64,000 nt of DNA from Lysobacter sp. BMK333-48F3. Lineage in GTDB: Bacteria > Pseudomonadota > Gammaproteobacteria > Xanthomonadales > Xanthomonadaceae. Made by a program: the position numbers and the translations under genes. This document shows, piece after piece, positions 144 to 53,400 of this stretch. Location: contig NZ_JAIHOO010000001.1 of the NCBI RefSeq assembly GCF_019733395.1, forward strand, positions 4,092,501 to 4,156,500, in the 5' to 3' direction. Numbering within the stretch: the stretch's first letter is position 1; every line of letters begins with the position of its first letter. The notes under the pieces are model-generated. The model did no database searches. It was not told where the DNA came from and worked only from the letters and a program-made list of their open reading frames with translations.

Positions 144-1163
144 ATGCGAGCGCAGCCCGCTACGACACTTGTCTACGACAGCTATTGGAAATTTGCGGCC
201 GAGCGGCTTGCAATATACTACCGGCGCTTGTCCAGCCCCCAGGGGCCTTGGACTTTAGACCCGATTCTTCACGAATATCGATTCACTAACGTGTTCCGGG
301 CTTCCGACAGGGTGAGTCAGTATCTTATTCGGGAAGTTCAGTATGGGGAGGGGCGCCCCCAGGAGCCTGCGGAAGTTTATTTCAGAACGCTGTTATTCAA
401 GATTTTCAACCGGATTGATACTTGGAGAGCGCTCGAAGAAAGACTCGGGAGGCTGAGTTGGAAACATACGAGTCTGCAAGCCATCGAAGATGCTCTCGAT
501 GAGATGTTGCGATCGGGGCGGAAGATCTACTCCGCGGCATACATCATGCCCTCTCCGAAGTTTGGAAGGGATCGCAAACACTCCAATCACTTGATTTTGC
601 TCGCCAGAATGATGGCTGAAGATATGCCTTTAAGAATGGCTAGGGCGCGATCATTGCGCTCGGTCTATGAGCAATTGCTGCAATATCCTGGCGTTGGGAG
701 TTTCTTGGCATTTCAGTATGCGATAGATCTAAACTATTCGTCTTTGATGGATTTCGACGAGTCAGATTTTGTCGTGGCAGGCCCGGGGGCGCTTGACGGA
801 ATCTCTAAGTGTTTTGTGAAGGGGCATTCATTTTCACCGGGCGAAATAATCAATATGATGGTTGATCGACAGTTTGAGGAGTTCAGCCAGAGGGGTCTGA
901 GGTTTGATGGCTTGTTTGGGCGGCCACTGAAGCCCATCGATTGTCAAAATATTTTCTGTGAGATTTCGAAATACGCGAGGGCGGCTTATCCGGAGATGGT
1001 TGGTGCTGCCGGGCGAACGCGGATCAAGCAGAAGTATCGAGGCTGTATCGCTGAGGCGATCCCCCTCCCCATGTTTCCGCCAAAATGGAATTTGAATGCG
1101 CAGCGATCAGAGCCGCTGTTCATCGAAAAAACTCCCGAGCTAGTTCAGGGTGAGCTCTGTTAG
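144..1163 (+). CDS. 5-hmdU DNA kinase helical-domain / thymine-hypermodification family protein
   Basis: A 339-aa protein. It opens with a YDSYWKFAAERL block, then ILHEYRFTNVFRASDRVSQY and FFR/LLFKIFNR-type helices, a helix-hairpin-helix-like stretch (YPGVGSFLAFQYAIDLNY, about residues 181-198) and a late DCQNIFCEISKYAR block ending in TRIKQKY. These are hallmarks I know from the HMUDK helical domain, part of the alpha-glutamyl/putrescinyl-thymine pyrophosphorylase superfamily with a DNA-glycosylase-like fold. Phage members act in thymine hypermodification; bacterial stand-alone members have no firmly known reaction. No P-loop kinase domain is fused here. An in-frame GTG lies at 135; ATG 144 is preferred because of a weak GTGA upstream, but neither start has a clear ribosome site. 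It converges on the MazG gene with 3 bases between stops. Base composition is far lower in G+C than the rest of the window, suggesting transfer. Confidence 0.8.
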   Translation: MRAQPATTLVYDSYWKFAAERLAIYYRRLSSPQGPWTLDPILHEYRFTNVFRASDRVSQYLIREVQYGEGRPQEPAEVYFRTLLFKIFNRIDTWRALEERLGRLSWKHTSLQAIEDALDEMLRSGRKIYSAAYIMPSPKFGRDRKHSNHLILLARMMAEDMPLRMARARSLRSVYEQLLQYPGVGSFLAFQYAIDLNYSSLMDFDESDFVVAGPGALDGISKCFVKGHSFSPGEIINMMVDRQFEEFSQRGLRFDGLFGRPLKPIDCQNIFCEISKYARAAYPEMVGAAGRTRIKQKYRGCIAEAIPLPMFPPKWNLNAQRSEPLFIEKTPELVQGELC

Positions 1164-1166
1164 TGG

Positions 1167-2801
1167 TTATTCGTCGGATAGGGCGAGTGCATTGCATAAC
1201 CAATGTCTATCAAGCTCAATGACTGTTGTGCGAAATGCAACGGCCTTCTTCCTCCACATGGCGTTGCGAGCTGCACCGGTTGCCCGCACGCTGATCTCGT
1301 TGTTGGGTAGTTCAACCAGGCTCAATAAGTCTAATTCGGCGGCGTCAGGTGAGAAAAATCCCAGCGAGGCGAGAACTGCGCGTCTCTTTACATCAATACG
1401 CCCAGGTTCGATCTGGTCACTGTCAATGTTGGGGCAAGACTTTGTGCTCGGTTTCTCAAGAAGTGCCGTCCCGAATCCTACAACTCTGCCGGCGATAGGG
1501 ATGTGCACGTCCGGGCGATAGCTGAGGGACCGGCTATCAAGGTCCACCGTGACAGTGCCTTGGCCCTCCAAGCGCAGTCGGTGGTAGGCCTCGTACCCTT
1601 CTGTTATGGCGTCTTCCCATTCCCACGCTCTATTGGCCGACACCTCTAAGCCAGTCACAAGGCTCTGGATAAATTTGAGAAATTTGAACGTAATATCATG
1701 TTTATTTGAAAACAGCCTGATGGGCTCTCCAGCCGAGGGTTGATTAGGGGCCGCCAATCGCTCCCCTTCACAATGAATCGCCTTGATGACTGCCTCTTCT
1801 ACTATCTTTGCTCTGGCGCCGTCTTCTACTTCATCAGTCTTCGAGTTGGCCTTTCTCTTTCGCCCCATGAGGCTACGTACAACAGGAGACCATCCTAGGT
1901 GCGCGATGTTTGCTAGGTGCATGACGTCATGAAATCTGTAGCCGTCATCGCTATAGGAATTGTCTGTAAGCTGATCCCCTAATCGTTTTCCTTCGAGATA
2001 CATTTGAGCTCTGCCCTCGCTGACAGTTACAAAAGCCACCTCAAATTTTCTAGGAAATTGCTGGTCGACTGGGGATTCGCGATCATGAACGATAACGGGG
2101 TGGTTTCTGTTTCGACGGTAAGAGACTTTATCTATATTGTGCTGAGCGACTTCGTCAAGATTCAATCCATAGATGCTGGCTAAAGCTGATATATGCCATG
2201 CAATCTCGCCAAGGATATTATTGAATGGCCTGTCATTAAGTGATTTATTAAGTTGGCGCTCGATATCTGGCAACAATACCCTGAATAGTTCTGCGCAGAG
2301 CCGGTAAAGAACTGCGATGCAAACTTCAACTAGAACTCTTTCTTTAGTGCGGGCTGTCAGGTAGGCAACCGCTTGGTAATCTTGGAAGTTCATGTGCCTC
2401 GTGGATCGCCGGAAGGATTCGGCAGCATCAAGAAATGCTTGGCGATTATCGCTTCCGATTACGATTCTGATTTGCTCTGATCTCGAATTATCAGCCGAAA
2501 GTTCGGCCTTTAGGTTTTCAATGTCGTGAATGAAGATATTTATCGGTTTTTCGGTATTTGCTACACGGGCCAGGGCGAAGCAGTACCACATAACATCGCC
2601 GAGCTCCTCCTTAATTTCTAAGTTCGGCTCGTTCCATGCGCTTATTCCATCTTCCTGTAGTAGCTTTTTCTTGATTGCTGAGGCGACAGAGCCAATCTCA
2701 GAGGCTAATCCGTAGATCGCAATTTCCTTGCGCTCTTCTGGGCTTCGGTGTCTGAACTGATCGGTATCTTGAACGAATTTGTCATATTCTGATATTTTCA
2801 T
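1167..2801 (-). CDS. MazG-type nucleotide pyrophosphohydrolase with long C-terminal domain
   Basis: 544 aa. Residues about 25-80 carry the all-alpha NTP pyrophosphohydrolase signature: GLASEIGSVASAIKKKLL, then EIKEELGDVMWYCFALARV, giving the E..(E)/E..D metal-binding pattern. MazG enzymes hydrolyse (deoxy)NTPs to NMP and pyrophosphate in the cytoplasm. The remaining about 300 residues match my memory of the MazG C-terminal domain found in bacterial nucleotide-modification neighbourhoods, including a DDGYRFHDVMHLANIAHLGW segment rich in conserved His and Asp. ATG at 2801 is preceded by GGAAGG at good spacing. It is the last gene of a three-gene operon (30-base gap from the Nmad2 gene). A size roughly four to five times that of a minimal MazG domain implies a second activity or a partner-binding role. 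Low G+C like its neighbours. Confidence 0.82.
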   Translation of the reverse strand: MKISEYDKFVQDTDQFRHRSPEERKEIAIYGLASEIGSVASAIKKKLLQEDGISAWNEPNLEIKEELGDVMWYCFALARVANTEKPINIFIHDIENLKAELSADNSRSEQIRIVIGSDNRQAFLDAAESFRRSTRHMNFQDYQAVAYLTARTKERVLVEVCIAVLYRLCAELFRVLLPDIERQLNKSLNDRPFNNILGEIAWHISALASIYGLNLDEVAQHNIDKVSYRRNRNHPVIVHDRESPVDQQFPRKFEVAFVTVSEGRAQMYLEGKRLGDQLTDNSYSDDGYRFHDVMHLANIAHLGWSPVVRSLMGRKRKANSKTDEVEDGARAKIVEEAVIKAIHCEGERLAAPNQPSAGEPIRLFSNKHDITFKFLKFIQSLVTGLEVSANRAWEWEDAITEGYEAYHRLRLEGQGTVTVDLDSRSLSYRPDVHIPIAGRVVGFGTALLEKPSTKSCPNIDSDQIEPGRIDVKRRAVLASLGFFSPDAAELDLLSLVELPNNEISVRATGAARNAMWRKKAVAFRTTVIELDRHWLCNALALSDE

Positions 2802-2831
2802 TGAGGCCTTCCGGTTGGCTGTACTATTTGC

Positions 2832-3434
2832 TCAGCTCCAATTAATCGGTCGTCCCAAGTTCCCCCTGGGTAACTGATTGAACCATCTCTCTATTGCCCT
2901 GATAAAGTTAGGTGAAAATTGCGATCGATAATCTCTCGTGCTGGGGTACAAATCGTCGTTCGCAAAAGACCTCAATTTTTTAGGTATGGGGATTGAGTCT
3001 CTGCCAAAGTAAACGAATTCGTAACTTATAAGCACCATTTCAGAGGTCGTTGTGTCGCGATCTAGATTGGCTTGGTTTACGGATCCGTCAGCGTAACTGT
3101 GGTGCGACCTCTCTTGCTTCCATTTTTTGCGGGCATTGCGATGGTAGATGTTGTCGCCATAAGCATGTGCTGGGCTGGCGTGGAAATTCGGGCGTTTCAC
3201 AGCGTAGCTGGGATCATCCCAGTATTCCTGGAATGTAATTTTCTTGCTGACGCGCATGGCGCAAATTAGCTCGCCTGGCCGCTTGTTTGCTTTGCTTCCA
3301 CAGCCAAATACGAGGTCTCCAATTTTCGCGGCTTTTCGAATCTTCGGTTTGCATGTCGCGAGAGTGCACGCGCCATGGAAAGGGTTGGGTGCAAATCCAT
3401 AGTCGCGAGTAATCTTGTAGGAATAGACCTGCAT
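2832..3434 (-). CDS. Nmad2-like nucleotide-modification-associated protein
   Basis: 200 aa. The N-terminus MQVYSYKITRDYGFAPNPF, followed by CTLATCKPKIRKAAKIGDLV and a GCGSK turn, is the pattern I associate with nucleotide modification associated domain 2, a PUA/EVE-like beta-barrel-type domain predicted to bind modified bases or nucleotides. A basic stretch (NARKKWKQERSHHSY) lies mid-protein. ATG 3434 sits two bases after the stop of the upstream TIR-like gene, so translation is probably coupled; an in-frame GTG at 3446 would overlap that gene and precedes the conserved start. Genes of this family are known by association with base-modification enzymes, which fits the convergent neighbour. 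The biochemical role is unproven. Confidence 0.72.
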   Translation of the reverse strand: MQVYSYKITRDYGFAPNPFHGACTLATCKPKIRKAAKIGDLVFGCGSKANKRPGELICAMRVSKKITFQEYWDDPSYAVKRPNFHASPAHAYGDNIYHRNARKKWKQERSHHSYADGSVNQANLDRDTTTSEMVLISYEFVYFGRDSIPIPKKLRSFANDDLYPSTRDYRSQFSPNFIRAIERWFNQLPRGNLGRPINWS

Positions 3435-3436
3435 AG

Positions 3437-3898
3437 CTATTGACACTTCTGATGATCAATAACGCGGTCCTTGATGGGTGCGTTGTCTGCTGATTCCCAT
3501 ACGTCTTCACCCTGAATAACGTTGGCCAGCCGAGCGCTGGAAATTCGGATGATCGCGCCAGCAATATCAAATTCCTGGGGATACACTGTCCGAGCCCCAC
3601 CAACAAGACCTACCATGCGCTTGCCGAGCTGGCCAGCTACACTGGCAGCGCCGTGAATTTCCCCGTCTTGCTCTAGTTCTTCTGGGATAAGGAAGATGCA
3701 TAGCTCTGCATTGCTAATGCAATTTCTAATCGTCTCAGATACGTCGCTCTCATCGTGGAGCAGTCCTCGGGCGGCTTCAGTGCTCGCTAGCGCCGAGCAT
3801 ACCGCGTAGCCATTCTGCTCCAGCTCTTCCTGAACGCGAGGCAGTTCGTCTTTGTTTGAATTTACATATATTACGCATGCCTTTTTCTGTCGGCTCAT
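3437..3898 (-). CDS. Small TIR-like or nucleoside-deoxyribosyltransferase-like protein
   Basis: 153 aa and promoter-proximal in the cassette operon. The first strand KACVIYVNSNKDE, a helix with ELEQNGYAV, then SETIRNCISNAELCIFLIPE and DGEIHGAASVAGQLGKRMVG form an alpha/beta Rossmannoid layout in which 'I..AELCIFLIPEE' resembles the core strand of TIR and nucleoside 2-deoxyribosyltransferase-like folds. That superfamily cleaves N-glycosidic bonds (NAD+ or nucleosides) or senses them; a conserved Glu (PEE region) could be catalytic, but I cannot assign it from sequence alone. No membrane segment or signal peptide is present. It could equally be a nucleotide-sensing component. ATG 3898 has only a weak purine-rich upstream site. 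Confidence 0.55.
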   Translation of the reverse strand: MSRQKKACVIYVNSNKDELPRVQEELEQNGYAVCSALASTEAARGLLHDESDVSETIRNCISNAELCIFLIPEELEQDGEIHGAASVAGQLGKRMVGLVGGARTVYPQEFDIAGAIIRISSARLANVIQGEDVWESADNAPIKDRVIDHQKCQ

Positions 3899-4352: not shown

Positions 4353-5192
4353 TCAAGCACAGAGTTCAGAAGTAGAACCTCCGGCGGATCGTTGGCGCGC
4401 CTCGGTAGGCGTCTGATTACCCAACGAATCGTGTGGTCGCAGTTCGTTGTATTCGATCATCCACCCGTGCGCGGCCTCGCGGACATCGTCGAGACGGGCG
4501 AACAGGTGCGGGTCCAGCACGTCCTCGCGGAAGGTGCGGTTGAAGCGTTCAATGTAGGCGTTCTGGTTTGGCTTGCCGGGCTGGATGTACTGGAGCGCTA
4601 CGCCGTTGGCCTTGGCCCAAGCCGTGAAAGCCTCGCCCAGGAACTCCGGACCGTTGTCCGAGCGCAGCACCTGCGGCAAGCCGTGATCGCGCTTGAGTTG
4701 CTCGAAGACTCGCACCAGGCGGCTGGAATTGATCGACGTGTCGATCTCGATATGCAGCGCCTCGCGGTTGAAGTCGTCGACCACGTTGAATGTCCTGAAA
4801 CGTCGGCCACAGGTCAGCGCGTCATTCATGAAGTCCATGGACCAGACCATGTCCGGCAGCCGTGGCACGTACAGCGCGGTGCGTTCCCTCTTGGGCAGGC
4901 GCTTGCGCGCAGCCCGTCGCAGATTCAGTCGCATCGCTCGGTACACGCGGTAGATCCGTTTGTGGTTCCACTGTGGATGGCTGCGCCGAAGGAACGCGCG
5001 GCACTTCCAGAACCCACGGCTGGGCCGCTCTTCGACCAGCCTGGCCAGCGCAGCGATCAACTCTGCGTCGCGCACGGCCCAGTCCAGCGGCGGCCGGTAC
5101 CACGCCGCCTCCGACAGGCCCACGCAGTTACAGCGACACACCGGCCGCGCGTGCACCTCCACCAGGTATCGCACTGCCTCGCGCTTGCGCAC
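4353..5192 (-). CDS. IS3-family transposase OrfB (DDE integrase domain)
   Basis: 279 aa counted from a GTG at 5192, but normally made as the C-terminal part of an OrfAB fusion by -1 frameshifting. An N-terminal HTH-like region (SRGFWKCRAFLRRSHPQWNH) precedes the retroviral-type integrase core with the catalytic triad in VWSMDFMNDAL (D), LRSDNGPEFLG (D) and NAYIERFNRTFRED (E), and the family's ELRPHDSLGNQTPTE tail. It performs strand cleavage and transfer at the element ends. Length is normal for the family and nothing is truncated. Confidence 0.93.
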   Translation of the reverse strand: MRKREAVRYLVEVHARPVCRCNCVGLSEAAWYRPPLDWAVRDAELIAALARLVEERPSRGFWKCRAFLRRSHPQWNHKRIYRVYRAMRLNLRRAARKRLPKRERTALYVPRLPDMVWSMDFMNDALTCGRRFRTFNVVDDFNREALHIEIDTSINSSRLVRVFEQLKRDHGLPQVLRSDNGPEFLGEAFTAWAKANGVALQYIQPGKPNQNAYIERFNRTFREDVLDPHLFARLDDVREAAHGWMIEYNELRPHDSLGNQTPTEARQRSAGGSTSELCA

Positions 5193-5197
5193 CGGCC

Positions 5198-5212
5198 CTA
5201 CAGTTTTTTTGC
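5198..5212 (-). promoter_or_regulatory. Programmed -1 frameshift site (A7 run)
   Basis: On the minus strand the end of orfA reads GCAAAAAAACTGTAG. Slipping back one base on the run of seven A (5204-5210) bypasses the TAG and joins orfA to orfB without an intervening stop, as is standard for IS3-family elements. Confidence 0.8.
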
Positions 5213-5464
5213 GATCAAATCCTTCATCGCAGCGTTGTCCAGCGCCAGCTCCGCATACATCCGTTTAAGCCGCGCGTTCTCCGCCTCGAGCTCCTTTACC
5301 CGGCGCAGCTCGGAGGCTTCAAGCCCGCCGTACTTGCTCTTCCACTGGTAGTAAGTCGCCACGCTGATGCCAGCCTGGCGACAGACGTCCTTGACCGGCA
5401 CCCCAACATCTGCCTGCTTGAGGATCGAGACGATCTGCGTCTCGGTGAACTTCGAAGTCTTCAT
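5198..5464 (-). CDS. IS3-family OrfA (HTH DNA-binding protein)
   Basis: 88 aa. It starts KFTETQIVSILKQADVG with an HTH (VKDVCRQAGISVATYYQWK) and ends in a leucine-zipper-like helix (ELEAENARLKRMYAELALD) used for multimerisation. It binds the terminal repeats, regulates the element, and supplies the N-terminus of the OrfAB transposase. ATG 5464 is preceded by a perfect AGGAGG. The downstream orfB lies in the -1 frame. Confidence 0.93.
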   Translation of the reverse strand: MKTSKFTETQIVSILKQADVGVPVKDVCRQAGISVATYYQWKSKYGGLEASELRRVKELEAENARLKRMYAELALDNAAMKDLIAKKL

Positions 5465-9731: not shown

Positions 9732-9986
9732 TCAGTTCCCCGCAGGCGGCTCGGCCAGCAGTGCCGAGCAGCGTCGGCAGGCATCGCGCACCCGGCGCAG
9801 ATTGTCGCGCACGGCCGGGTCGTCGGCGGCGCCGGCCTCGACCAGGCCGCTCGCGGCGGCGCTGGCCATGGTCACGGTGTTGATCTCGTTGCGTAGCCGG
9901 TGCAGCCAGTGCGCGAACTCGGCCGGGTCCGGTCCGGGCCCGTGCTGTGCGTCCGAACCCGGCTTGGGCGCGGCCTCAGACGTCAT
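9732..9986 (-). CDS. Mini histidine-phosphotransfer/DHp-like protein
   Basis: 84 aa. The core HWLHRLRNEINTVTMASAAA resembles the H-box helix of sensor kinases (H..RNE/N), and a second helix (DNLRRVRDACRRCSALLA) could complete a DHp hairpin; there is no ATP-binding domain. It overlaps the end of the sigma-54 response-regulator gene by 11 bases on the same strand, so the two are co-translated. The obvious proposal is a phosphorelay partner, sink or phosphatase for the REC domain next door. H29 would be the phospho-acceptor. Family assignment is tentative. Confidence 0.6.
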   Translation of the reverse strand: MTSEAAPKPGSDAQHGPGPDPAEFAHWLHRLRNEINTVTMASAAASGLVEAGAADDPAVRDNLRRVRDACRRCSALLAEPPAGN

Positions 9987-13317: not shown

Positions 13318-13525
13318 ACGCGGCGCATGCCTGCGTCGTTCGGCGGACCCGCGATGCCGGTGCGCGGGTTTCCTGCACGGCGCGATCCGGCCGCGCGCAG
13401 CGCCGTCGCCGCATGCGCGGGCCGGCGCCGGGTAAACGCGATGCGGCCCTCGTTCACCCGTCTTGGACGGTCGCGGTCGCACAGTTGGAAGCTCCGCTTC
13501 CCGTCACGCATTGCGAGGTGCCGCC

Positions 13526-14449
13526 ATGGCCCGCCCGATCTGGACCGGAACCCTGTCGTTCGGCCTGCTCAACATCCCGGTCAAGCTGATGACCGGCGAG
13601 CGCCGGGTCGACCTGCATTTCCGCATGCTCGACAGCCGCAATAAGGCGCCGATCCGCTACGAGCGGGTCAATGAGGAGACCGGCGAGGAAGTGCCGTGGA
13701 AGGAGATCGTCAAGGCCTTCGAGTACGACAAGGGCAATTACGTGGTGATCGAGGAGGCCGACATCGCCGCGGCGGCGCCGGACCACAAGGAAACCGTCGA
13801 TATCGACACCTTCGTCGACGCCGCCGCGATCGGGCCGCAGTTCTACGACAAGCCCTACGTGCTCGAGCCGGGCAAGAAGGCGGAGAAGGGCTATGTGCTG
13901 CTGCGCGAAGTGCTGCAGCGCACCGGCAAGGTCGGGGTGGGGCGGGTGGTGATCCGCACCCGCGAGTACCTGGCCGCGGTGATGCCGCACGAGGACGCGC
14001 TGCTGCTGATGATCCTGCGCTACGCCCAGGAGATCGTCGACCCGGCCGACTACAAACTGCCCGAGGGCGGGCTGGCGAAGTGGAAGATCTCCTCGCGCGA
14101 GGTCGACATGGCCCAGCAGCTGATCGACTCGATGAGCAGCGGCTGGAAGCCGGAGCAGTACAAGGACGACTTCCGCCAGCGCCTGCACAAGGTGATCGAA
14201 CAGCGGGTCAAGTCCAAGCAGGTGGTGCGCGGCAAGGTCAGCGACGAGAGCAAGTTGCCGGAGAACGCGGCCACCAACGTGATCGACTTCGCCGAGCTGC
14301 TCAAGCGCAGCCTGGCCAAGAAGGGCGGGCGCGGCGCCGCCGAGCCGGCCAAGAAGAGCGCCAGGAAAGCGGCCAAGAAGACCGCGACCAAGGCGGCCAA
14401 GAAGGGCGCCCGCAAGGTCGCCCGCAAGAGCGCGCGCAAGTCGGCCTGA
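13526..14449 (+). CDS. ku: Ku protein (bacterial non-homologous end joining)
   Basis: 307 aa from ATG 13526 (GAGGTG upstream). It begins MARPIWTGTLSFGLLNIPVK, the invariant start of bacterial Ku, followed by the ring-forming core with KAFEYDKGNYVVIEEADI and TREYLAAVMPHEDALLLMIL and the dimerisation region near DMAQQLIDSM. Residues after about 265 form a Lys/Ala/Arg-rich tail (KKSARKAAKK and repeats) that binds DNA non-specifically. Ku homodimers ring broken ends and recruit ligase LigD; no ligD lies in this window. The surrounding genes (ferritin-like, MgtC, BON) suggest a stress-survival context. Confidence 0.95.
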   Translation: MARPIWTGTLSFGLLNIPVKLMTGERRVDLHFRMLDSRNKAPIRYERVNEETGEEVPWKEIVKAFEYDKGNYVVIEEADIAAAAPDHKETVDIDTFVDAAAIGPQFYDKPYVLEPGKKAEKGYVLLREVLQRTGKVGVGRVVIRTREYLAAVMPHEDALLLMILRYAQEIVDPADYKLPEGGLAKWKISSREVDMAQQLIDSMSSGWKPEQYKDDFRQRLHKVIEQRVKSKQVVRGKVSDESKLPENAATNVIDFAELLKRSLAKKGGRGAAEPAKKSARKAAKKTATKAAKKGARKVARKSARKSA

Positions 14450-38462: not shown

Positions 38463-41400
38463 ATGAGCAGCGAAGTCCTCCATCCTTTAAGCTCTCCCCA
38501 GCACGCCGTGTGGCTGGACCAGTCGCTGGCGCCGGATCTGCCTTGTTACAACATCGGCACCGCGGTGCTGTTCGAGGGGCCGGCCGACCCCGATCGTTTC
38601 GAGGCGGCCGTGCGCCAGGTCGCGCAACGCCATGCCGCGTTGCGGATCGTGCTCGAACGCAGCGGCGACGGCGTCCGGCAGCGTTTCGCCGACATCGCCG
38701 GGGCTAGCCTGCAGCGGATCGACCTTTGCGGCCGCGCCGATGCCGAGGAGCTCGCCTGGCAGCGCATGCGCGCGGCGTTCGATGCGCCGTTCGACTTGTA
38801 CGGCCAGCCGTTGTGGCGCATGCAGTGGTTGCAGGTGACGCCGCAGCGCGCCTATTGGCTGCTGTGCTTCCATCATCTGGTCGCCGACGGCTGGGCCGTG
38901 GCGCTGATCGGACAGGCGGTCAGCCAGGCCTACAACCGTCTGTCGCGCGGCGAAGCGCCCGAGCCCGAAGACGGCTCGGACGACGAAGCCGACTATCGCG
39001 ATTTCATCGCCCGCGACGCCGAGTACCTGGCTTCGCCGCGCTACGCCAAGGACCGCGAGTTCTGGACCCAGCGCTACGCTCGGCTGCCCGATCCTCTGTT
39101 CGAGCAAGCGCCCGGGCGGCGCGGCCGCTTCGATCGGCGTTTCGGCCAAGCGGTGTGGTCGCTGGAGCGCGCGCGCTACCAGCGTCTGAGCGACGTCGCC
39201 GCCGCCCAGGGCGGATCCGGCACGCACTTCATCGCCGCCGCGCTGGCCGTGTACTTCGCCCGCATCGCCGGCCGCGAGGACGAAGTGGTGATCGGCATGC
39301 CGGTGCACAACCGCACCGGCGCCGCGCAACGGCGCACGGTCGGCATGTTCGCCGCAGCGATGCCGGTCGGCATCACGGTCGATGCGCGGGCGCCGTTCGC
39401 TGCGGTGTTGGCGCAGACGGCGGCGGAGACGAAGCGCTGCTACCGGCACCAGCGATACCCCTTGGCGGACCTGCATCGCGAGCTGCTCAGCGGGGTCGGC
39501 GACCGTCGCGGCCTGTTCGACCTGTCGCTGTCGATGGAAGGGTTCCAGGGCGATCTCGAAATGGACGGCGCCGCCAGCACGGCGTATCCGTTGCACAACG
39601 GCTACGAGCGCCAGCCGTTGGCGGTCTACGTGCGCGATTACGAGCAGCAGCGCCCGGTCCGGATCGAGTTCAACTACGACCCGGACGCGTTCGGCGAGCA
39701 CGACATGGCCGCGCACTTGCGGCGGTTGGAGCGGCTGGTCCTGGCCGCGATCGAGACCCCTGAAGCCGCGGTCGGCGACCTGCCGCTGATGGACGAAACC
39801 GAGCGCACACTGGTCCTGCATCGGTTCAACGAACCGCAGTTGGACACCGGTGCGCCGCAGCCGATGCATCGGATGTTCGAAAGGCATGCGCAGGCCACGC
39901 CCGACGCGATCGCGGTGCAGCACGAAGACCAGGCCCTGAGCTACGGCGAGCTCAACCGGCGGGCCAATCGCCTGGCCCATCATCTGCGCGGGCTCGGCGT
40001 CGGCCCGGACGCGCTGGTCGCGATCGGCCTGGAGCGCGGGCTGGACCTGGTCGTCGCGATCCTGGCCACGCTCAAGGCCGGCGGCGCTTACGTGCCGCTG
40101 GACCCGGTCTATCCCGACGAGCGCCTGCTGCACATGTTGGACGACAGCGCGCCGGTCGCCTTGATCGGCGATGAGGACTTGATCCGGCGCCTGCAGCCTT
40201 CGGCCGACTGCCGCCTGGTGCGGATGGACTCGGCCGAGGCGGAGCGGCCGTGGGCGCGCGCGAGCAGCGACAACCCCGAAGTCGAGGGGCTGACCCCGGC
40301 GCACCTGGCCTACGTGATCTACACCTCCGGTTCGACTGGCCTGCCCAAGGGGGTGATGGTCGAACACGCCCAGGTCAGCCGCCTGTTCGCCGCGACCCAG
40401 GCCGATTTCGGTTTCGGCCGCGACGACGTCTGGACCCTGTTCCATTCCTTCGCCTTCGACTTCTCGGTGTGGGAACTGTGGGGCGCGCTGATCCACGGCG
40501 GACGCCTGATCGTGGTGCCGCATGCGATCAGCCGGGCGCCGGCCGAGTTCCATCGCCTGGTCTGCGAGCAGGGCGTGACCGTACTCAACCAGACCCCGAG
40601 CGCGTTCCGCCAGTTCGTCGCCGCCGGCCAGGCCGCGCCGCGCCCGCATGCGTTGCGCTACGTGATTTTCGGCGGCGAAGCGTTGGAGATGGCGAGCCTC
40701 AAGCCGTGGTACGCGCAGCCGCACAATCTCGCCACGCGCCTGGTCAACATGTACGGCATCACCGAGACCACGGTGCACGTGACCTACCGGGCGCTGCAGC
40801 CGGCCGATGCGGAGCGACCCGGCGCCAGCCCGATCGGCACGCGCATCGGCGACCTCAGTCTGTACGTGCTAGACCCGCAGGGCCGGCCGCTGCCGGTCGG
40901 CTGCACCGGCGAGATGTACGTCGGCGGCGCCGGCGTGGCCCGCGGCTATCTGCGCCGCCCGCAACTGGATGCGCAGCGTTTCCTGCCCGACCGGTTCAGC
41001 GGCGCGCCGGGGGCGCGCATGTACCGCACCGGCGATCTCGGCCGCTACCTGGCCGACGGCACGCTGGAGTACTTCGGCCGCAACGACCAGCAGGTCAAGA
41101 TCCGCGGCTTCCGCATCGAGCTGGGCGAGATCGAAGCGCAGCTGAGCCAAGTCGAGGGTGTCGGCGAAGCGGTCGTGGTCGCGCGCGCGGACGTGCCGGG
41201 CGACCAGCGCCTGGTCGCTTACCTGGTCGCCGGCGACGACGCGCCGCTGCCGGAACCGGCGCGTCTGCGCGAGGCCTTGCGCGACCGACTGCCCGATTAC
41301 ATGCTGCCGGCGGCGTATGTGCGCCTGCCGGCGTTGCCGCTGACCGCAAACGGCAAACTGGACCGCAAGGCGCTGCCGGCGCCGGACGACCAGGCTTATC

Positions 41401-44400
41401 GGCAGCGCGCCTACGAAGCGCCGCGCGGCGGCGCCGAACAGGCCTTGGCGCGGATCTGGGCCGAGCTGCTCGGCGTCGAACAGGTCGGTCGCGACGACAA
41501 CTTCTTCGAGCTCGGCGGCCATTCCATCCTCGCCGTGCAGCTGGTCGAACGCCTGCAGCGCGAAGGCCTGCCGACGACCATCCGCGATCTGTTCTCGGCG
41601 CCCAGCCTGGCCGCGCTGGCCGCGAACCTGGCCGGGCAAGGGCAGGGCGAGCCCGTCGCGGTGCCGGCCAACGCCATCGCCGAGGGCTGCGAGCGCATCG
41701 TCCCCGAGATGCTGCCGTTGGTGCGCCTGGATCAGGCCCAGATCGACCTGGTCGCCGCCGCAGTGCCGGGCGGCATGGCCAATATTCAGGACATCTATCC
41801 GCTGGCGCCGCTGCAGGAAGGCATCCTGTTCCACCACCTGCTGCAACGCGACAGCGATGCCTACGTTCTGCCGGCGCTGCTGCGCTTCGACGACCGCGCC
41901 CGCCTGGACCATTTTCTGGACGCATTGCAGCGGGTCATCGCACGTCACGACATCTTGCGCACGTCGGTTCAATGGGAGGGGCTGGACGAACCGGTGCAGG
42001 TAGTCTGGCGCCGCGCCGAAATGAATCTGCACACGCTGGCGCTGGACCCTGCCCGCGGCGACGTGCAGGCGCAGTTGCAGGACCGGGCCGATCCGCGCCG
42101 AGCCCGACTGGACCTGCGCCGCGCGCCGATGCTGCAGGCCTATGCCGCTTTCGATCCGGCAGGCGGGCATTGGCTGCTGCAGTTGCTGCATCACCACCTG
42201 ACCCTGGATCACACCACCACCGAACTGATCCTGCACGAAGTGGTCGCGCTGCTGCAGGGGCGTGGCGACGAGTTGCCGGCGCCGGTGCCTTTCCGCGACT
42301 TCGTCGCGCGGGCGCGCCATGGCGTGGGCGAGGCCGAACACGAGGCTTACTTCCACGCCATGCTCGGCGATCTGGACGAGCCGACCGCGCCGTTCGGCTT
42401 GCTCGACGTGCAGGGCGACGGCTCGCAGGTCGAGCAGGCGCGGCGCACGTTGCCGGCGGAACTGTCGGCGCGGTTGCGACGCCTGGCCCGCGCCCACGGC
42501 GTCGGCGCGGCCAGTCTGTTCCATCTGGCCTGGGCCCAGGTGCTGGGGCAGTGCAGCGGCCGCGACGACGTGGTGTTCGGCACCGTGCTGTTCGGACGCA
42601 TGCAGGGCGGCGCCGGCATCGACCGCGCCATGGGTATGTTCATCAACACCTTGCCGGTGCGCATCGTCCTGGGCGGACGCGACGCGGCGCAAGCGTTGCG
42701 CGAAACCCACGAGCGCCTGAGCGGGTTGTTGCGCCACGAGCAGGCCTCGCTGACCCTGGCCCGCCGTTGCAGCGGACTCGGCGCGGGCGCGCCGATGTTC
42801 TCGGCGCTGCTCAACTACCGCCATAGCCGCGCCGAAACGTTCGGCGAGAGCCGCATCGCCGACGGCATCCAGTACCTCGGCGGGCGCGATCTGACCAATT
42901 ATCCCTTCAGCCTGTACGTCGACGACCTCGGCAGCGACTTCGTGCTGACCGCCGAGATCCATGCCTCGGTCCGCGCCGAGCGCATCGCCGATTTCGTCGA
43001 GCAGGCGCTGACCGCCCTGGCGCAGGCGCTGGAACGATCTTCCGATGCGCCGCTGAGCGCGCTCGACGCGCTGCCGGCGGCGGAGCGCCAGTGCGTGCTC
43101 TACGGTTACAACGACACCCGCCGCGACTATGCCGCGCCGGCCTTGGTCCACGAAGCCTTCGAGCAGCAGGCCGCGGCGCATCCGGAGCGGATCGCGCTGG
43201 AACTGGACGGTGCGCAACTGAGCTATCGCGCGCTCAACGAACAGGCCAACCGCCTGGCGCGGCATCTGCGCGGCCTCGGCGTCGGCCCCGACCAACGCGT
43301 GGCGATCTGTGTCGAACGCAGTCTGGCGATGGTGGTGGCGATCCTGGCCACGCTGAAAGCCGGCGGCGCTTACGTGCCGCTGGATCCGGCCTATCCGGAC
43401 GAGCGCCTGGCGCAGATGCTGCGCGACAGCCGGCCGGCGGCAGTGCTGAGCCAGCACCGGCTGTTGCCGCGGCTGGCGCCGGGCGAGGCCGCGCTGGTGC
43501 TGCTCGACGAGGCGGCGCCGGCCTGGGCCAAGGCCTCGGCCGCCAACGTGCACGGCGGCGAGCTGGGGCTGAAGCCCGAGCACCTGGCCTACGTGATCTA
43601 CACCTCCGGCTCGACCGGCGTGCCCAAGGGCGTGGCGATGCCGCATCGCGGCCTGGTCAACCTGCTGGCCTGGCAGCGCGAACAGTTGCCGGAACCGGCG
43701 CGGACCCTGCAGTTCGCCGCGCTGGGCTTCGATGTCGCGTTCCAGGAAATCTTCAGCACCCTGGGCAGCGGCGGCACCCTGGTGCTGCTGCACGAAGAAC
43801 TGCGCCAGGATCTGCCGGCGCTGGCCGAGTGGTTGGCGCAGGAGTCGATCGAACGGCTGTTCCTGCCGTACATCGCTCTGAGCACGCTCAGCGAACTGTG
43901 GTCGCAGCGCGCCGAGCCGCTGCCGATGCTGCAGGACCTGATCACCGCCGGCGAACAACTGCGCATCACCCCGGCGATCCGGCGCATGTTCGCCAAGCAC
44001 CCGCAGGCGCGGCTGCACAACCACTACGGCCCGACCGAAAGCCACGTGGTCAGCGCGCATACCCTGGACGGCCCGGCCGAACACTGGGAAGACCTGCCGC
44101 CGATCGGCCGGCCGATAGGCAACAGCCGGGTCTATCTACTCGATGCGCAGCGGCGGCCGGTGCCGGTCGGCGTCGCCGGCGAGCTGTACCTGGGCGGGGT
44201 GCAGGTCGCGCAGGGCTATCTGCAGCGGCCAGAGCTGAGCGCGCAGCGCTTTCTGGCCGACCCCTTCGACCGCCGCGGCGGCGGCCGCATGTACAAGACC
44301 GGCGATCTCGGCCGCTGGCGCGAAGACGGCACGATCGAGTACCTGGGCCGCAACGATTTCCAGGTCAAGGTGCGAGGCTACCGGATCGAGCTGGGCGAGA

Positions 44401-47400
44401 TCGAGGCGCAGCTGACGCGCGCCGACGGCGTGCGCGAGGCGGTGGTGATCGCCCGCGACGGGCGTCCGGGCGAAACCCGGCTGGTCGCCTATCTGATCGT
44501 CGAGCCCGGCGCAGCGAAGCCGGAGGCGGCGCAACTGCGCGCGCAGCTGAGCCAGCGCCTGCCGGACTACATGCTGCCGGCCGCTTACGTGGTCCTGGAG
44601 GCCTGGCCGCTGACCCCGAACGGCAAGCTCGAACGCAAGGCGCTGCCGGCGCCGGACGGCGAATCCTACGGCCGCCGCGCCTATGCCGAACCGCAGGGCG
44701 AGGTCGAACAGGCCCTGGCCGCGATCTGGTCGCAGTTGCTGGGCGTGGAGCGGGTCGGACGCGACGACGACTTCTTCGAACTCGGCGGACATTCCTTGCT
44801 GGCGATCCGGTTGTTGGAACAACTGCGCCGCCGCGGCTGGTCGACCGATATCCGTTCGCTGTTCGCTCATCCCACCTTGGCCGCGCTCGCCGCTGCGGTC
44901 CAGGGCGAGGGCGGAGAGGCGAGGGTGGCGGTGCCGCCGAACCGGATCCCGCCCGGCTGCGAGGCGATCGCGCCGGCGATGCTGCCGCTGGTCGCGCTCG
45001 ACGCCGCGGCGATCGAGCGCATCGTCCGCGCCACGCCGGGCGGCGCGGCCAATATCCAGGACATCTATCCGCTGGCGCCGCTGCAGCAGGGCATCCTGTT
45101 CCACCACCTGCTGCAGAGCGAGACAGATACCTACGTTCTGCCGACCCTGCTGGAGTTCGACGACCGCGCCCGCTTGGACCGCTTCGTCGCCGCTCTGCAG
45201 CGGGTCGTCGCGCGCCACGACATCCTGCGCACCGCCGTGCATTGGGAAGGCCTGGCCGAGCCGGTGCAGGTGGTCTGGCGCCGCGCCGGGCTGGAGCTGC
45301 GTACGCTGGAGTTGGCGCCGGGGCCGCAGCCGGCCGAGCAGCGTCTGCGCGAACATCCGCAGGTGCGCGGCTCGCGCATCGACGTGCGCCGCGCGCCGAT
45401 GCTGCACGGCTACGCCGCCCGCGCCGAGCGCGGCGAACGCTGGCTGTTGTTGCTGGCCTATCACCACCTGGTGATGGACCACACCACCCTGGAACGGCTG
45501 GTCGAGGAGATCGCCGCGATCGAACGCGGCGACGAGGCCGAGCTGCCGGCGCCGGTGCCTTTCCGCGACTTCGTCGCCCAGGCCCGGCTCGGCATCGGCG
45601 AGCGCGAGCATGAGGGCTTTTTCCGCGCCATGCTCGGCGATCTGGACGAGCCGACCGCACCGTTCGGCCTGCTCGACGTGCAGGGCGACGGTTCGCAGAT
45701 CGAACAGGCGCAACGCCGCTTGCCGGCCGAGCTGGCGGCGCGGCTGCGTCGGCAGGCGACGGCGCACGGCGTCGGCGCGGCCAGCCTGTTCCATTTGGCC
45801 TGGGCCCAGGTGCTGGGGCAGTGCAGCGGCCGCGACGACGTGGTATTCGGCACCGTGCTGTTCGGGCGCATGCACGGCGGCGCCGGCGCCGACCGCGCGG
45901 TCGGCATGTTCATCAACACCTTGCCGCTGCGCTTGCGGTTGGGCGGACGCAGTGCGCGCCAGGCGTTGCGCGAGACCCACGAGCGCCTGAGCGGCTTGTT
46001 GCGCCATGAGCACGCCTCGTTGGCGCTGGCCCAGCGCTGCAGCGCGATGGAAGCGCATACACCGCTGTTCTCGGCCCTGCTCAATTACCGCCACAGCCAG
46101 GTCGGCAGCGGCGCCCACACCCGGGTCCTCGACGGCGTGCGCCTGCTGGACGTGCGCGACCGCACCAATTATCCGTTCGGCCTCTACATCGACGACTCGG
46201 GGCGCGATTTCGAACTGACCGTGCAGGTCGCGGCCTCGGTCCGCGCCGAGCGCATCGCCGATTTCGTCGAGCAGGCGCTGACCGCCCTGGCGCAGGCGCT
46301 GGAACGATCTTCCGATGCGCCGCTGAGCGCGCTCGACGCGCTGCCGGCGGCGGAGCGCCAGTGCGTGCTCTACGGTTACAACGACACCCGCCGCGACTAT
46401 GCCGCGCCGGCCTTGGTCCACGAAGCCTTCGAGCAGCAGGCCGCGGCGCATCCGGAGCGGATCGCGCTGGAACTGGACGGTGCGCAACTGAGCTATCGCG
46501 CGCTCAACGAACAGGCCAACCGCCTGGCGCGGCATCTGCGCGGCCTCGGCGTCGGCCCCGACCAACGCGTGGCGATCTGTGTCGAACGCAGTCTGGCGAT
46601 GGTGGTGGCGATCCTGGCCACGCTGAAAGCCGGCGGCGCTTACGTGCCGCTGGATCCGGCCTATCCGGACGAGCGCCTGGCGCAGATGCTGCGCGACAGC
46701 CGGCCGGCGGCAGTGCTGAGCCAGCACCGGCTGTTGCCGCGGCTGGCGCCGGGCGAGGCCGCGCTGGTGCTGCTCGACGAGGCGGCGCCGGCCTGGGCCA
46801 AGGCCTCGGCCGCCAACGTGCACGGCGGCGAGCTGGGGCTGAAGCCCGAGCACCTGGCCTACGTGATCTACACCTCCGGCTCGACCGGCGTGCCCAAGGG
46901 CGTGGCGATGCCGCATCGCGGCCTGGTCAACCTGCTGGCCTGGCAGCGCGAACAGTTGCCGGAACCGGCGCGGACCCTGCAGTTCGCCGCGCTGGGCTTC
47001 GATGTCGCGTTCCAGGAAATCTTCAGCACCCTGGGCAGCGGCGGCACCCTGGTGCTGCTGCACGAAGAACTGCGCCAGGATCTGCCGGCGCTGGCCGAGT
47101 GGTTGGCGCAGGAGTCGATCGAACGGCTGTTCCTGCCGTACATCGCTCTGAGCACGCTCAGCGAACTGTGGTCGCAGCGCGCCGAGCCGCTGCCGATGCT
47201 GCAGGACCTGATCACCGCCGGCGAACAACTGCGCATCACCCCGGCGATCCGGCGCATGTTCGCCAAGCACCCGCAGGCGCGGCTGCACAACCACTACGGC
47301 CCGACCGAAAGCCACGTGGTCAGCGCGCATACCCTGGACGGCCCGGCCGAACACTGGGAAGACCTGCCGCCGATCGGCCGGCCGATAGGCAACAGCCGGG

Positions 47401-50400
47401 TCTATCTACTCGATGCGCAGCGGCGGCCGGTGCCGGTCGGCGTCGCCGGCGAGCTGTACCTGGGCGGGGTGCAGGTCGCGCAGGGCTATCTGCAGCGGCC
47501 AGAGCTGAGCGCGCAGCGCTTTCTGGCCGACCCCTTCGACCGCCGCGGCGGCGGCCGCATGTACAAGACCGGCGATCTCGGCCGCTGGCGCGAAGACGGC
47601 ACGATCGAGTACCTGGGCCGCAACGATTTCCAGGTCAAGGTGCGAGGCTACCGGATCGAGCTGGGCGAGATCGAGGCGCAGCTGACGCGCGCCGACGGCG
47701 TGTGCGAGGCGGTGGTGATCGCCCGCGACGGGCGTCCGGGCGAAACCCGGCTGGTCGCCTATCTGATCGTCGAGCCCGGCGCAGCGAAGCCGGAGGCGGC
47801 GCAACTGCGCGCGCAGCTGAGCCAGCGCCTGCCGGACTACATGCTGCCGGCCGCTTACGCGGTCCTGGAGGCCTGGCCGCTGACCCCGAACGGCAAGCTC
47901 GACCGCAAGGCGCTGCCGGCGCCGGACGGCGAATCCTACGGCCGCCGCGCCTATGCCGAACCGCAGGGCGAGGTCGAACAGGCCCTGGCCGCGATCTGGT
48001 CGCAGTTGCTGGGCGTGGAACGGGTCGGACGCGACGACGACTTCTTCGAGCTCGGCGGACATTCGTTGCTGGCGATCCGGTTGATCTCGCAGGTGCGGGA
48101 GCGGCTCGATGCCGAGCTGGCCTTGTCGAGCCTGTTCGCCCAACCGCGCTTGGCCGCGCTGGCCGTCGCGGTGGCCGCGGCTGGACGCAGCGCGCTCGCG
48201 CCGATCCCGCTCGCCGGCCGCTCGCAGCCCCTGCCCTTGTCGCCGGCGCAGCAGCGGCTGTGGTTCGTCGCCGGCGTCGATCCGCTGGCCAGCGCCGCGT
48301 ATCACGTCCCCGGCGCGCTGCGTCTGCGCGGCGCACTCGATCGTGCGGCGCTGCGCGCGGCACTGGACCGCGTCGTGGCGCGGCACGAATCGCTGCGTAC
48401 CCGTTTCGTCGCTATCGACGGTCAACCCTGGCAAACGATCGATCCGCCGCGCGGGTTCGCGTTGAGCGAGCAGGACGCGGGCGGTCTGACTCCGCAACAG
48501 ATCGAAGATTTGTGCCGCGAAGCCGCGGCGCAGCCCTTCGACCTCGCCGCGGGGCCGCCGATTCGCGGCCGCCTGCTGCGCGTCGCCGCCGACGAGCACG
48601 TGCTGCTGGTGACGATGCACCACATCGTGTCCGACGGTTGGTCGCTGAGCGTGCTGATGCGCGAAGTCGCCACCGCCTACAGCGCGTTGCGTGAAAACCG
48701 CGACCCGCCGGAGCCGGCGCTGCCGGTGCAGTACCCCGATTATGCGGTCTGGCTGCAGCACCGCCTGGACGCACCGGAGGCGCAGGCGCAGTTGGCGTCC
48801 TGGGTCGAACACTTGCGCGGCGCGCCGTCGCTGGTCGAGCTGCCGACCGACCGGCCGCGGCCGCCGTTGCAGGACTACCGCGGCGCCAGCCTCGACGTCG
48901 GCTTGGACGCGGCGGCGAGCGAAGCCGTGCGCAACCTGGCCCAACGTCATGGCGCTACTGCGTACATGGTGGTGCTGGCGGCCTGGGCGGCGGTAGTCGC
49001 GCGCTACAGCGGCCAGCGCCGGGTAGTGCTCGGCAGCTCGCACGCCGGCCGCGACCGGGTCGAGATCGAGCCGCTGATCGGTTTCTTCGTCAACACCCAG
49101 GCGATCCAGATCGACCTGGACGCGGCGGCGAGCGTAGGCGAGCTGCTGGCGCAGGTGCGGCAGGAGGCGCTGCGGGCGCAGGAACGCCAGCAGGTGCCGT
49201 TCGAACGGCTGGTCGAGGCCCTGAACCCGCCGCGCTCGATGGCGCACTCGCCGGTGTTCCAGCTGATGCTGACCTGGCACAACACCCCGGATGTGCGCCT
49301 GGAGCTGGCCGGGTTGGAGGTGGAGCGGGTCGAGAGCCTGCCCGCCAGCGCCCAGTTCGATCTGGCGCTGGACCTGCAGGAGCGGGACGGGCGCGTGCTC
49401 GGCAAACTCAACTACGCGACCGCGCTGTACGACGAGGCGACCGTGCGCCGGCATTGGGAAGGCGTGGCCGCGATGTTGCGCGGCATGGCCGCCGACGACG
49501 GTCAGCCGGTCGAGCGGATCGACTTGCTGGACGCGCCGCAGCGCCAACAGTTGCTGCAGGACTTCGCCTTCGGCGGCGCGGCCGTGCCGGCGCATGCGTT
49601 CGTGCAGACCGCGTTCGAACGCCAGGCGGCGCAACGGCCGGACGCGGTCGCGATCGAGCACGACGGCGAAGCCTGGACATACTCCGAGCTGGACCGGCGC
49701 GCCAATCGCCTCGCGCATTACCTGCGCGGACTCGGTCTGCAGGCCGACGACCGGATCGCGCTGTGCCTGCAGCGCGGACCGGAGCTGATCGTTGCGGTCC
49801 TCGCCACGCTCAAGGCCGGCGCGGCCTACGTGCCGTTGGATCCTGCGCATCCGGACCAGCGACTGGCCTGGCTGTTGCAGGATTGCGCACCGGCGGCGCT
49901 GTTGACCCAAAGCGCCTTGCGCGGGCGTCTGCAGCCTCCCGCGGGTTGCCGCGCGATCGCGCTCGACGCCACCGCCTGGGAGCATGCGCCCTGGGCGGCG
50001 GCGCCGGCGCATGCGCCGGATCTGCGGGCCTGGGCCGGCGACGGCTCGCACTTGGCCTACGTGATCTACACCTCCGGATCGACCGGCACGCCCAAGGGGG
50101 TGATGGTCGAGCATCGCCAGTTCGCGCACCAGGTCGCGGCCCTGCAGTCGCTGTACAGCTTCGTGCCGGAAGACCGTGTGCTGCAGTTCTCCGGGCTCAG
50201 CTTCGACGTCGCCGGCGAGGAGATCTTCGGTGCGCTCAGCCACGGCGCCACGCTGGTGCTGCGCACCGACGACTGGCTGGCCGAACCGCAGCGCTGGTGC
50301 GAGCTATGCGACGGTCACCGCCTGACCGTCGCCAACCTGCCGACCCTGTTCTGGCAGCGCCTGGCGCAGACGCCCGCGGCGAGCCTGCCGGCGCGGCTGC

Positions 50401-53400
50401 GCCAGATCGTGATCGGCGGCGACGCGGTCGGCGCAGCCGCGCTCGAAGCCTGGTGGCGCCGCGACGGCCATCTTCCGGCGTTGGCCAATGCTTATGGCCC
50501 GACCGAAACCACCATCAACGCCAGCGTGGCCCGCTGCCGCGCCGACGACCCGCCGGGCAGCATCGGCCGGCCGGTCGCCAATGCGCGCATCTATCTGCTC
50601 GATCCGCAGGGGCAGCCGGTACCGCTCGGCGCGGTCGGCGAAATCTGCATCGGCGGTGCCGGCGTGGCGCGCGGCTATCTGCATCGCCCGGAGCTGACCG
50701 CGCAGCGCTTTCTGGCCGATCCCTTCGCGCCGCCCGGCGCGCAGGCGCCGAGGATGTACCGCAGCGGCGATCTCGGCCGCTGGCGCAACGACGGCACGAT
50801 CGAGTTCCTCGGCCGCGACGACCAGCAGGTCAAGCTGCGCGGATTCCGCATCGAGCTCGGCGAGATCGAGGCCGAACTGGCGCGCCTGGACGGCATCGCC
50901 GAGGCGGCGGTGATCCTCGACGCAGGGCAGGGCGAGGACCGCCGTCTGCTGGCCTATGTGGTCGCCGCCGGCGAGCGCCTGGATCCGGCCGAGCTGCGCG
51001 CAGGGCTGGCCGAACGCCTGCCGGACTACATGTTGCCGGCAGCGTTCGTGCGTTTGCCTGCGCTGCCGCTCAACGCCAACGGCAAACTCGACCGCGCCGC
51101 ACTGCCGGCCCTGGAAGGCGCGGCTTATGCGCAGGCCGCATTCGAACCGCCCCAGGGCGAGCACGAGATCGCACTCGCGCGACTGTGGTCGCAATTGCTC
51201 GGCGTCGAAGCGGTCGGCCGCGGAGACGGCTTCTTCGAGCTCGGCGGACATTCGCTGCTGGCGGTGCGGATGATTTCGCAACTGCGCCAGCGGCTCGGCG
51301 TGGAACTGGCGCTGAGTTCGGTGTTCGCGCGGCCGAGGCTGGCCGAACTGGCGGCGGAGCTGGCCCGGTCTGCGCCCAGCGCGGCCGATCCGATCCCGCA
51401 AGCCGACCGCAGCCGGCCGTTGCCGCTGTCGCATTCGCAGCAACGGCTGTGGTACGTGACCCGGATCGACGCTCAGGCCGGCGCGGCCTATCACTTGCCG
51501 GGCGCGCTGCGCTTGCGCGGCGAACTCGACCGCGACGCCCTGCAAGCGGCGCTGGATCGCATCGTCGCGCGTCACGAAACCCTGCGCGCGCGGTTCTTCG
51601 CCGTCGACGGCCAGCCGCGGCAACGGATCGAGCCGTGGGCGCCGGCGGCGATCGGCTATCGCGTGCTGGAGGGGCTCGACGAGGCCGCACTGCGCGAGCT
51701 GTGCCGGGCCGAGGCCGCGGCCCCGTTCGATCTGGAGCGCGAGCCGCCGCTGCGCGTGCAGTTGCTGCGCCTGGCGCAGGACGAACATGTGCTGTTGTTG
51801 ACCTTGCACCACATCGTCGCCGACGGCTGGTCGCTGAGCGTGCTCGCGCACGAGTTCTCGACCCTGTACCGCGCCTTCCGCGTCGGCCAGGCCGATCCGC
51901 TGCCGGCCCTGCCGGTGCAGTACGCGGATTACGCCGCCTGGCAACGGCAGCGTGCGCAGGGGGCGCAATGGCAGCGCCAGTTGCAATACTGGGTGGAGCG
52001 CCTGGGCGAGGCGCCGCCGCTGATCGGGTTGGCCACCGATCGGCCGCGGCCGCCGAGCCAGGACTATCTCGGCGCCCGTTTCGACGTCGCCCTCGACCCC
52101 GCCCTCGGCGCCGATCTGTCCGCCTTGGCGCAGCGCCACGGTGCGACCTTGTACATGGTCGTGCTGGCGGCGTGGGCGGCCGTGCTGGGCCGACTCAGCG
52201 GCCAGTCGCAGGTGGTGCTGGGCAGCTCGCTGGCCGGCCGCGACCGCGCCGAGTTCGAACCGCTGATCGGCTTCTTCGTCAATGCCCAAGCGCTGCGTTT
52301 CGACCTCGATCAGAGTCTCGACGTCGCCGGTTTGCTGGCGCAGGCGCGCGAGGTCGCGCTGCAGGCCCAGCACCATCGCGAAGTGCCGTTCGAACAAGTG
52401 GTCGAGGCGCTCAATCCGGCTCGTTCGACCGCCTACAACCCGATCTATCAGGTGCGCCTGGCTTGGCAGAACACGCCGCCGACCCAGCTTGCCGCCGACG
52501 GGCTGGCGTTCGACAGCCTCGCCTCGCAGGCCGGGCATGCCCAGTTCGACCTGTCGCTCGATCTGGAACCGGCGGGCGAGGGCATCGTCGGCCAGTTCAA
52601 CTACGCTACCGCGCTGTACGACGAGGCGACGGTGCGCCGGCACTGGGACGCGTTGGTGGCGATGCTGCGCGGCATGGTCGCCGACGAGCGCGCGCCGGTG
52701 GCGCGGATCGGCCTGCTCGATGCCGAGCGGCGCGAACAGGTCTTGTACGGCTTCAATGCGTCCGGCGCCGGCGGCCACGACGATCTGCTGCACCGCCTGT
52801 TCGAGCGCCAGGCCGCGGCGCAGCCGCAGACCCTGGCTTTGGCCTACGACGGACAGGAGTTGAGCTACGCCGAGCTCAATGCGCGGGCCAATCGCATCGC
52901 CCACCATCTGCGCGGGCTGGGCCTGCGTCCGGACGATCGCGTGGCGCTGTGCCTGGAACGCAGCCTCGACCTGGGCGTGGCCTGGTGGGCCACGCTCAAG
53001 GCCGGCGGCGCCTGCGTGCCGCTGGATCCGGTGCATCCCGACGAACGTCTGGCGCACATGCTGTCCGACAGCGCGCCGGTCGCGGTGCTGACCCAGTCGC
53101 ACCTACTTTCCCGCCTGCAGGTGCCGGCCGGCTGCACGGTGCTGTCGCTCGACGAAACGGCGGAACATGCGCTGGAAGCGGCGCCCTGGGCGCAAGCCTC
53201 GGCGCAGGATCCGGATCCGGCCGAGGTCGGCTTGTCGCCGGCGCATCTGGCCTACGTGATCTACACCTCGGGCTCGACCGGATTGCCCAAGGGCGTGATG
53301 GTCGAGCACCGCAACGTGCTCAATTTCCTGCACGGCATGGAGCAGCGCATCCATGGCCCGGCGCCGGACTGCCGCCGCATCGCCTGGAACTCCTCGTTCG

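Follow-up and report, generated by a model that had tools for sequence, protein, structure and literature searches.

Base-excision enzymes that act against phages with modified bases have been described as Brig1 and Brig3/BapA (PMC11078745, PMC13160076); according to the passages on these enzymes they are relatives of uracil DNA glycosylase acting on derivatives of 5-hydroxymethylcytosine, one passage places a homologue of Brig1 close to a SIR2 protein that is ThsA-like, and MazG is absent from the main texts of both papers. A broader set of domains is named in the DefensePredictor study (PMC13092281), in whose relevant passages aGPT-Pplase, MazG, MazG-C and an NMAD domain are assigned to defence systems that were predicted but not validated (text on Fig. 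6F, the legend of which carries UDG among its abbreviations), 5-hydroxymethyluracil kinase and thymidylate synthase are among the domains validated in E. coli, the legend to Fig. 3C lists TS, dNMPk, 5hmdUk and NMAD, and Burroughs et al. 2015 is cited. Here we describe, in a 64 kb stretch of DNA from Lysobacter sp. BMK333-48F3 (the window; all coordinates count from its start), a cluster of four genes encoding HMUDK_hel, MazG/MazG_C, Nmad2 and TIR-like proteins. A simple rule defines the widespread group of probable immune systems to which this cluster belongs, namely a constant TIR-like/Nmad2 pair accompanied by either of two base-acting enzymes that can replace each other.

The module varies a kind of defence that is already known, though largely still as a prediction, and most of its parts have already been named as predicted defence domains in those passages of PMC13092281. 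The original prediction, which knew of no description of this exact combination, holds in part: aGPT-Pplase, MazG, MazG-C and NMAD are named, while the passages concerned contain neither the TIR-like/Nmad2 pair nor an either/or rule, a pseudo-TIR or a C-terminal cysteine, and the term 'TIR' occurs in them 0 times. In the literature searched, which leaves out most subscription papers, we found no other paper on the module and no account of the enzyme swap, the pseudo-TIR branch or the tail cysteine. By its MazG-related passages, PMC9503650 is not relevant to the module.

Interchangeable enzymes beside a constant Nmad2/TIR-like pair

The four-gene cluster is genuine, intact and foreign. Four adjacent genes of common low G+C, three of them coupled, had been noticed beforehand, and both observations are borne out. 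The G+C contents are 0.512 (HMUDK_hel), 0.486 (MazG_C), 0.484 (Nmad2) and 0.519 (TIR-like), that is 48-52% against 70% for the chromosome and 0.698 for window positions 10-64 kb. All frames are intact, and the TIR-like, Nmad2 and MazG_C genes follow one another in that order on the minus strand with gaps of 2 and 30 bases, HMUDK_hel being convergent with them (stops 3 bases apart). Three of the four proteins were assigned by Pfam scan (PF18723, E 8.6e-102; PF18722, 2.8e-62, with PF03819, 2.4e-9; PF18753, 2.8e-67). Part of the linkage may already be covered by Iyer et al. 2013 and Burroughs et al. 2015, with whom the Nmad and HMUDK predictions, and those on nucleotide-centred conflict systems, reportedly originate.

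These families are rare, and their linkage exceeds chance. In a set of 398 genomes from the phylum, one of them the window's own, HMUDK_hel was found in 5, MazG_C in 4 and Nmad2 in 6; HMUDK_hel adjoins MazG_C in two further genomes (G344, G146), and in G339 it lies about 5 kb away from a TIR-like/Nmad2 pair. Of 72,556 plasmid records, 16 hold Nmad2, 22 hold HMUDK_hel and 5 hold both. Co-occurrence of the four families in other genomes, on which the prediction had been staked beforehand, was found both on plasmids and across many phyla. The HMUDK_hel family is matched by 479 phage records, and Nmad2 by none of the annotated phage records. Of eight Nmad2-bearing contigs from the viral collection, four (L124, L125, L127, L128) hold at least two further module parts, and some of these four may be prophage-borne or host DNA.

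A scan of the Nmad2 alignment against 84,980 species (one genome each) returned 224 relatives, and the locus counts that follow refer to the 80 most similar of these, with up to 8 kb fetched per side. Neighbours (UDG-type, that is uracil-DNA-glycosylase-type; TS-like, that is thymidylate-synthase-like; large TIR; others) were called at E<=1e-5 with self-built profiles drawn from few loci. Pfam confirmed these labels for 1/3 UDG, 2/2 thymidylate synthase and 3/3 TIR_2 proteins, and public records give the name uracil-DNA glycosylase to three further UDG-type seed proteins, one being the Pfam-confirmed protein. An adjacent TIR-like gene is present in 76 loci, MazG_C in 52, HMUDK_hel in 37, a larger TIR gene in 33, a UDG-type gene in 28 (two of them weak matches of 64-65 bits, L072 and L113), a TS-like gene of the main type in 20 and of a second type in 7, and a separate SLOG gene in 14. 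Four loci gave no TIR-like match next to Nmad2: L073 and L078 begin at a contig edge, L091 has a strongly diverged open reading frame bearing the same C-terminal tail as the TIR-like proteins, and in L085 no TIR-like frame is visible.

No locus carries both HMUDK_hel and a UDG-type gene (0/80, p=5.7e-11); one of the two is present in 65 loci and neither in 15. MazG_C accompanies the UDG-type gene in 28/28 loci, and the HMUDK_hel loci comprise 16 with MazG_C and 20 with the main TS-like type. On a tree of Nmad2 alone, in which 27/78 inner branches are starred, the HMUDK_hel label requires 17 changes, at least 7 of them forced by starred branches, against a shuffled mean of 27.2 (0/500 as low), and the UDG-type label 19 against 23.6 (11/500 as low). 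As these counts fall below the shuffled means, the label is in part passed on together with Nmad2. The two enzymes, which are unrelated, have been swapped repeatedly next to the same Nmad2/TIR-like pair.

Some arrangements depart from the common one. In L045:3122-7511 and L046:2710-6505 a pseudo-TIR/Nmad2 pair is flanked on both sides by MazG_C genes. Same-genus relatives (L034:4596-9293, L032) have a locus related to the module, with genes that by eye are helix-turn-helix, ImmA/IrrE-like, papain-like, TS-like, UDG-type and MazG_C, beside which Nmad2 was not seen. A different Nmad2 group (L028:6343-7778, L030:7729-9242) shares a further gene, which we take to be Nmad3-like, after Nmad2, and no TIR-like partner was noticed there.

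Predicted base chemistry

The claim that the first protein is of HMUDK type stands for its helical part (PF18723), and not for a kinase: no kinase domain was matched by Pfam in the window protein, and an HhH glycosylase/PUGT-like fold is predicted instead. This prediction rests on weak structural matches to the phage enzyme PUGT and to HhH glycosylases; the sequence profile gave no convincing solved relative. One source names relatives of the protein alpha-glutamyl/putrescinyl thymine pyrophosphorylase clade 1, and public records frequently label them 'nucleotide kinase domain-containing protein'. In three loci (L070:12029-13723, L078:2869-4584, L079:4868-6511), each with a TS-like gene, HMUDK_hel has an N-terminal P-loop fusion, dTMP-kinase-like by eye. 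The exchange with UDG-type enzymes suggests that HMUDK_hel is a base-flipping enzyme, and the UDG-type genes of 28/80 sister loci recall the Brig systems (PMC11078745, PMC13160076), whose enzymes, from the passages on them, are of the uracil DNA glycosylase kind, whereas the window has an HhH-type protein. Within the window and 15 kb to its left, the UDG-type profile, a comparison that did not include the Brig proteins, found no match.

For Nmad2, the structural model matches PUA-like structures (ASCH/EVE/YTH-type) weakly, and the predicted PUA-like fold is that of modified-base readers; neither the Nmad2 nor the UDG-type sequence profile gave a convincing solved relative. In the MazG protein of the window the MazG motif still has E35, E66 and D69, but serine replaces the second glutamate of ExxE, as in 35/56 aligned rows (glutamate in 5/56); residues from about 431 to 544 of this protein match no Pfam family. 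The predicted link of these families with base modification is borne out, and a conflict-system reading fits.

We infer, with moderate confidence, a horizontally acquired anti-phage module made up of a base-chemistry half and a reading half, together with its substrates, the order of its steps and the role of the tail. HMUDK_hel, with its predicted glycosylase fold, would flip a modified pyrimidine out of invading DNA and excise it or carry out a transfer there, the place of HMUDK_hel being held in sister systems by the UDG-type glycosylase. MazG_C would bind or hydrolyse the corresponding modified deoxynucleoside triphosphate, and Nmad2, paired with the TIR-like protein, would recognise either the base, modified or released, or the altered DNA.

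The same enzymes could instead raise an alarm, MazG_C and HMUDK_hel making or sensing a free modified nucleotide for which Nmad2 is the receptor. The constancy of Nmad2 beside varying enzymes agrees with this, as do the alternation of MazG_C with the main TS-like type (together in 1/80 loci, p=1e-10) and the change of the MazG motif at one and the same place in most rows. However, the PUA-like structural relatives, judged from their titles, bind bases inside nucleic acid, and the best structural match of HMUDK_hel acts on DNA (as PUGT does), and we regard such an alarm as rather improbable.

It might also be postulated that the genes help to put hypermodified thymine into the host's own DNA, with Nmad2 telling self from non-self. 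HMUDK_hel and PUGT-type enzymes are part of phage thymidine hypermodification (HMUDK, aGPT/PUGT), which the window resembles in its HMUDK_hel family member and predicted PUGT-like fold, and the pairing of HMUDK_hel with a TS-like gene in 20/80 loci and its kinase-like fusion in 3 are in keeping with such a role. The window differs from the phage pathway in that no TS-like match, as a candidate dUMP hydroxymethylase, was found in it or its 15 kb left flank, the single thymidylate synthase match of the genome lies far from the locus, and HMUDK_hel has no matched kinase domain (no search was made for a kinase encoded on its own). Replacement of HMUDK_hel by a UDG-type enzyme is moreover awkward for base synthesis, and we consider self-marking unlikely.

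A pseudo-TIR branch with a conserved cysteine tail

In most carriers of the proposed anti-phage module, the TIR-like protein is of the kind found in Thoeris. All 25 canonical partners scanned (22 from the 80 loci, 3 from plasmids) match both Pfam ThsB_TIR and PADLOC ThsB, and some relatives add a TIR-SLOG protein, the SLOG domain being fused in 2/3 large TIR proteins examined; in these relatives the ThsB-type protein would probably make an NAD+-derived signal, for the TIR-SLOG effector where present. The module differs from Thoeris in that the TIR-like partner pairs with Nmad2 and not with ThsA. The window protein itself has no Pfam match, matches one PADLOC ThsB model weakly (E 1.1e-4) and, among 5.8 billion proteins, found only itself, so that its kinship was derived via the neighbours of Nmad2. 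A profile of 9 pseudo-TIR-clade proteins matched the 25 canonical partners with 99.0% probability (E 7e-18), which places the window protein, together with those of L044-L053, in one family with the canonical partners.

Neither the FISH nor the WVNWEIE motif is present in these 11 proteins; in the window protein an Ala/Gly-rich stretch takes the place of WVNWEIE. The glutamate of WVNWEIE, which by analogy with TIR NADases is the catalytic residue, is kept in 65/77 aligned TIR-like proteins and missing in 12/77, namely these 11 and L064. The 11 loci form one Nmad2 clade (support 100/96) with long branches and six named genera besides the window's. A larger TIR gene is present in 0/10 fetched loci of this clade against 33/70 others (p=0.004), and a separate SLOG gene in 0/10 against 14/70 (p=0.20). 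The SLOG and large-TIR profiles gave no match across the 64 kb of the window and its 15 kb left flank, and there was none to ThsB_TIR or SLOG cluster 2 (PF18163) anywhere in the genome, where the SLOG positive control worked (other TIR/SLOG families and SIR2 were not searched genome-wide). Because the glutamate, the larger TIR gene and a SLOG cluster 2 match are all missing, NAD+ signalling at the window locus is unlikely on sequence grounds, and the suggestion that the system depletes NAD+ is not supported here. A Thoeris-like reading, with an effector activated by an NAD+-derived signal from the TIR-like protein, draws on the canonical partners and their TIR and SLOG companions, but for the window locus is very improbable.

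The dead active site, the adjacent IS3-type element and the effector that was not found could also mark the decaying remnant of a formerly working system with no present function. We see little likelihood of this: the four open frames are intact, the window Nmad2 and HMUDK_hel retain the residues invariant in their respective alignments, and the long-branched clade has kept both tail and Nmad2 partner across its genera. The branch instead offers a natural experiment in which the Nmad2/TIR-like pair persists without NAD+ chemistry. Since the active site and the TIR-SLOG effector have gone from the window branch, defence by the proposed module would come there from base chemistry and/or from a non-catalytic output of Nmad2 and the pseudo-TIR that needs the cysteine tail.

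A cysteine stands within the last four residues of 75/77 TIR-like partners, last or next-to-last in 71; the exceptions are L066, whose frame is truncated, and L114, in which a residue close to the terminus is undetermined. The window protein, encoded directly upstream of Nmad2, ends in HQKCQ, and the cysteine is present in 11/11 proteins of the pseudo-TIR clade. Across the clade and 64 other rows (L066 and L114 set aside), the cysteine and one proline are the only invariant residues of the window protein. The tail is not general to TIR-like genes, as it was found in 0/23 weaker TIR-like frames in the 80 loci (larger TIR proteins lie outside this check), nor does it extend to Nmad2 (1/80 proteins). 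An origin as a by-product of gene overlap was rejected as well: the TIR-like stop lies -20 to +40 bases from the Nmad2 start in 69/75 loci (by a rule-of-thumb Nmad2 start), many loci lack an overlap, and the stop codons are 36 TGA, 20 TAA and 20 TAG. This cysteine points to another function of the TIR-like/Nmad2 pair. One speculative and on balance improbable version of the module is an immune sensor triggered by base removal, in which the TIR-like protein is a pseudo-enzyme acting through its C-terminal cysteine; the tail may be an intrinsic mimic lodged in the pocket of Nmad2, to be displaced by the released or modified base, or its thiol may be joined to a reactive site made by HMUDK_hel or the UDG-type enzyme in phage DNA. 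Such a sensor would account for the cysteine outlasting the TIR active site and for the interchange of two unrelated base-acting enzymes.

Genomic setting

The four-gene set was probably acquired horizontally and sits in a variable site, because synteny with related genomes breaks around it and the window start falls within a 10 kb variable stretch. Host sequence shared to the left of the cluster stops about 460 bases ahead of the window, and a transposase pair lies on the right. In one same-genus genome (G019) synteny is lost at -464 and returns at 9740 with different genes in between; in a second (G009) it is lost at -462, the contig ending soon after. Coordinates are collected in Table 1.

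Table 1. Features of the cluster and its border in the window.
Feature	Position	Strand	Length (aa)	Remarks
HMUDK_hel	144-1163	+	339	PF18723; alternative start GTG at 135
MazG/MazG_C	1167-2801	-	544	PF03819 + PF18722
Nmad2	2832-3434	-	200	from ATG; PF18753; alternative start GTG at 3446
TIR-like (ThsB-type) pseudo-enzyme	3437-3898	-	153	without catalytic Glu; conserved tail ending KCQ
Transposase frames, IS3-type by eye	4353-5464	-		island border; outside system

Elsewhere in the window, a frame at 13463-14449 (+), outside the variable stretch, resembles by eye a Ku-type DNA-end-binding protein, and an open frame of 5,369 codons at 38463-54572 (+) has a start that resembles, again by eye, a non-ribosomal peptide synthetase.
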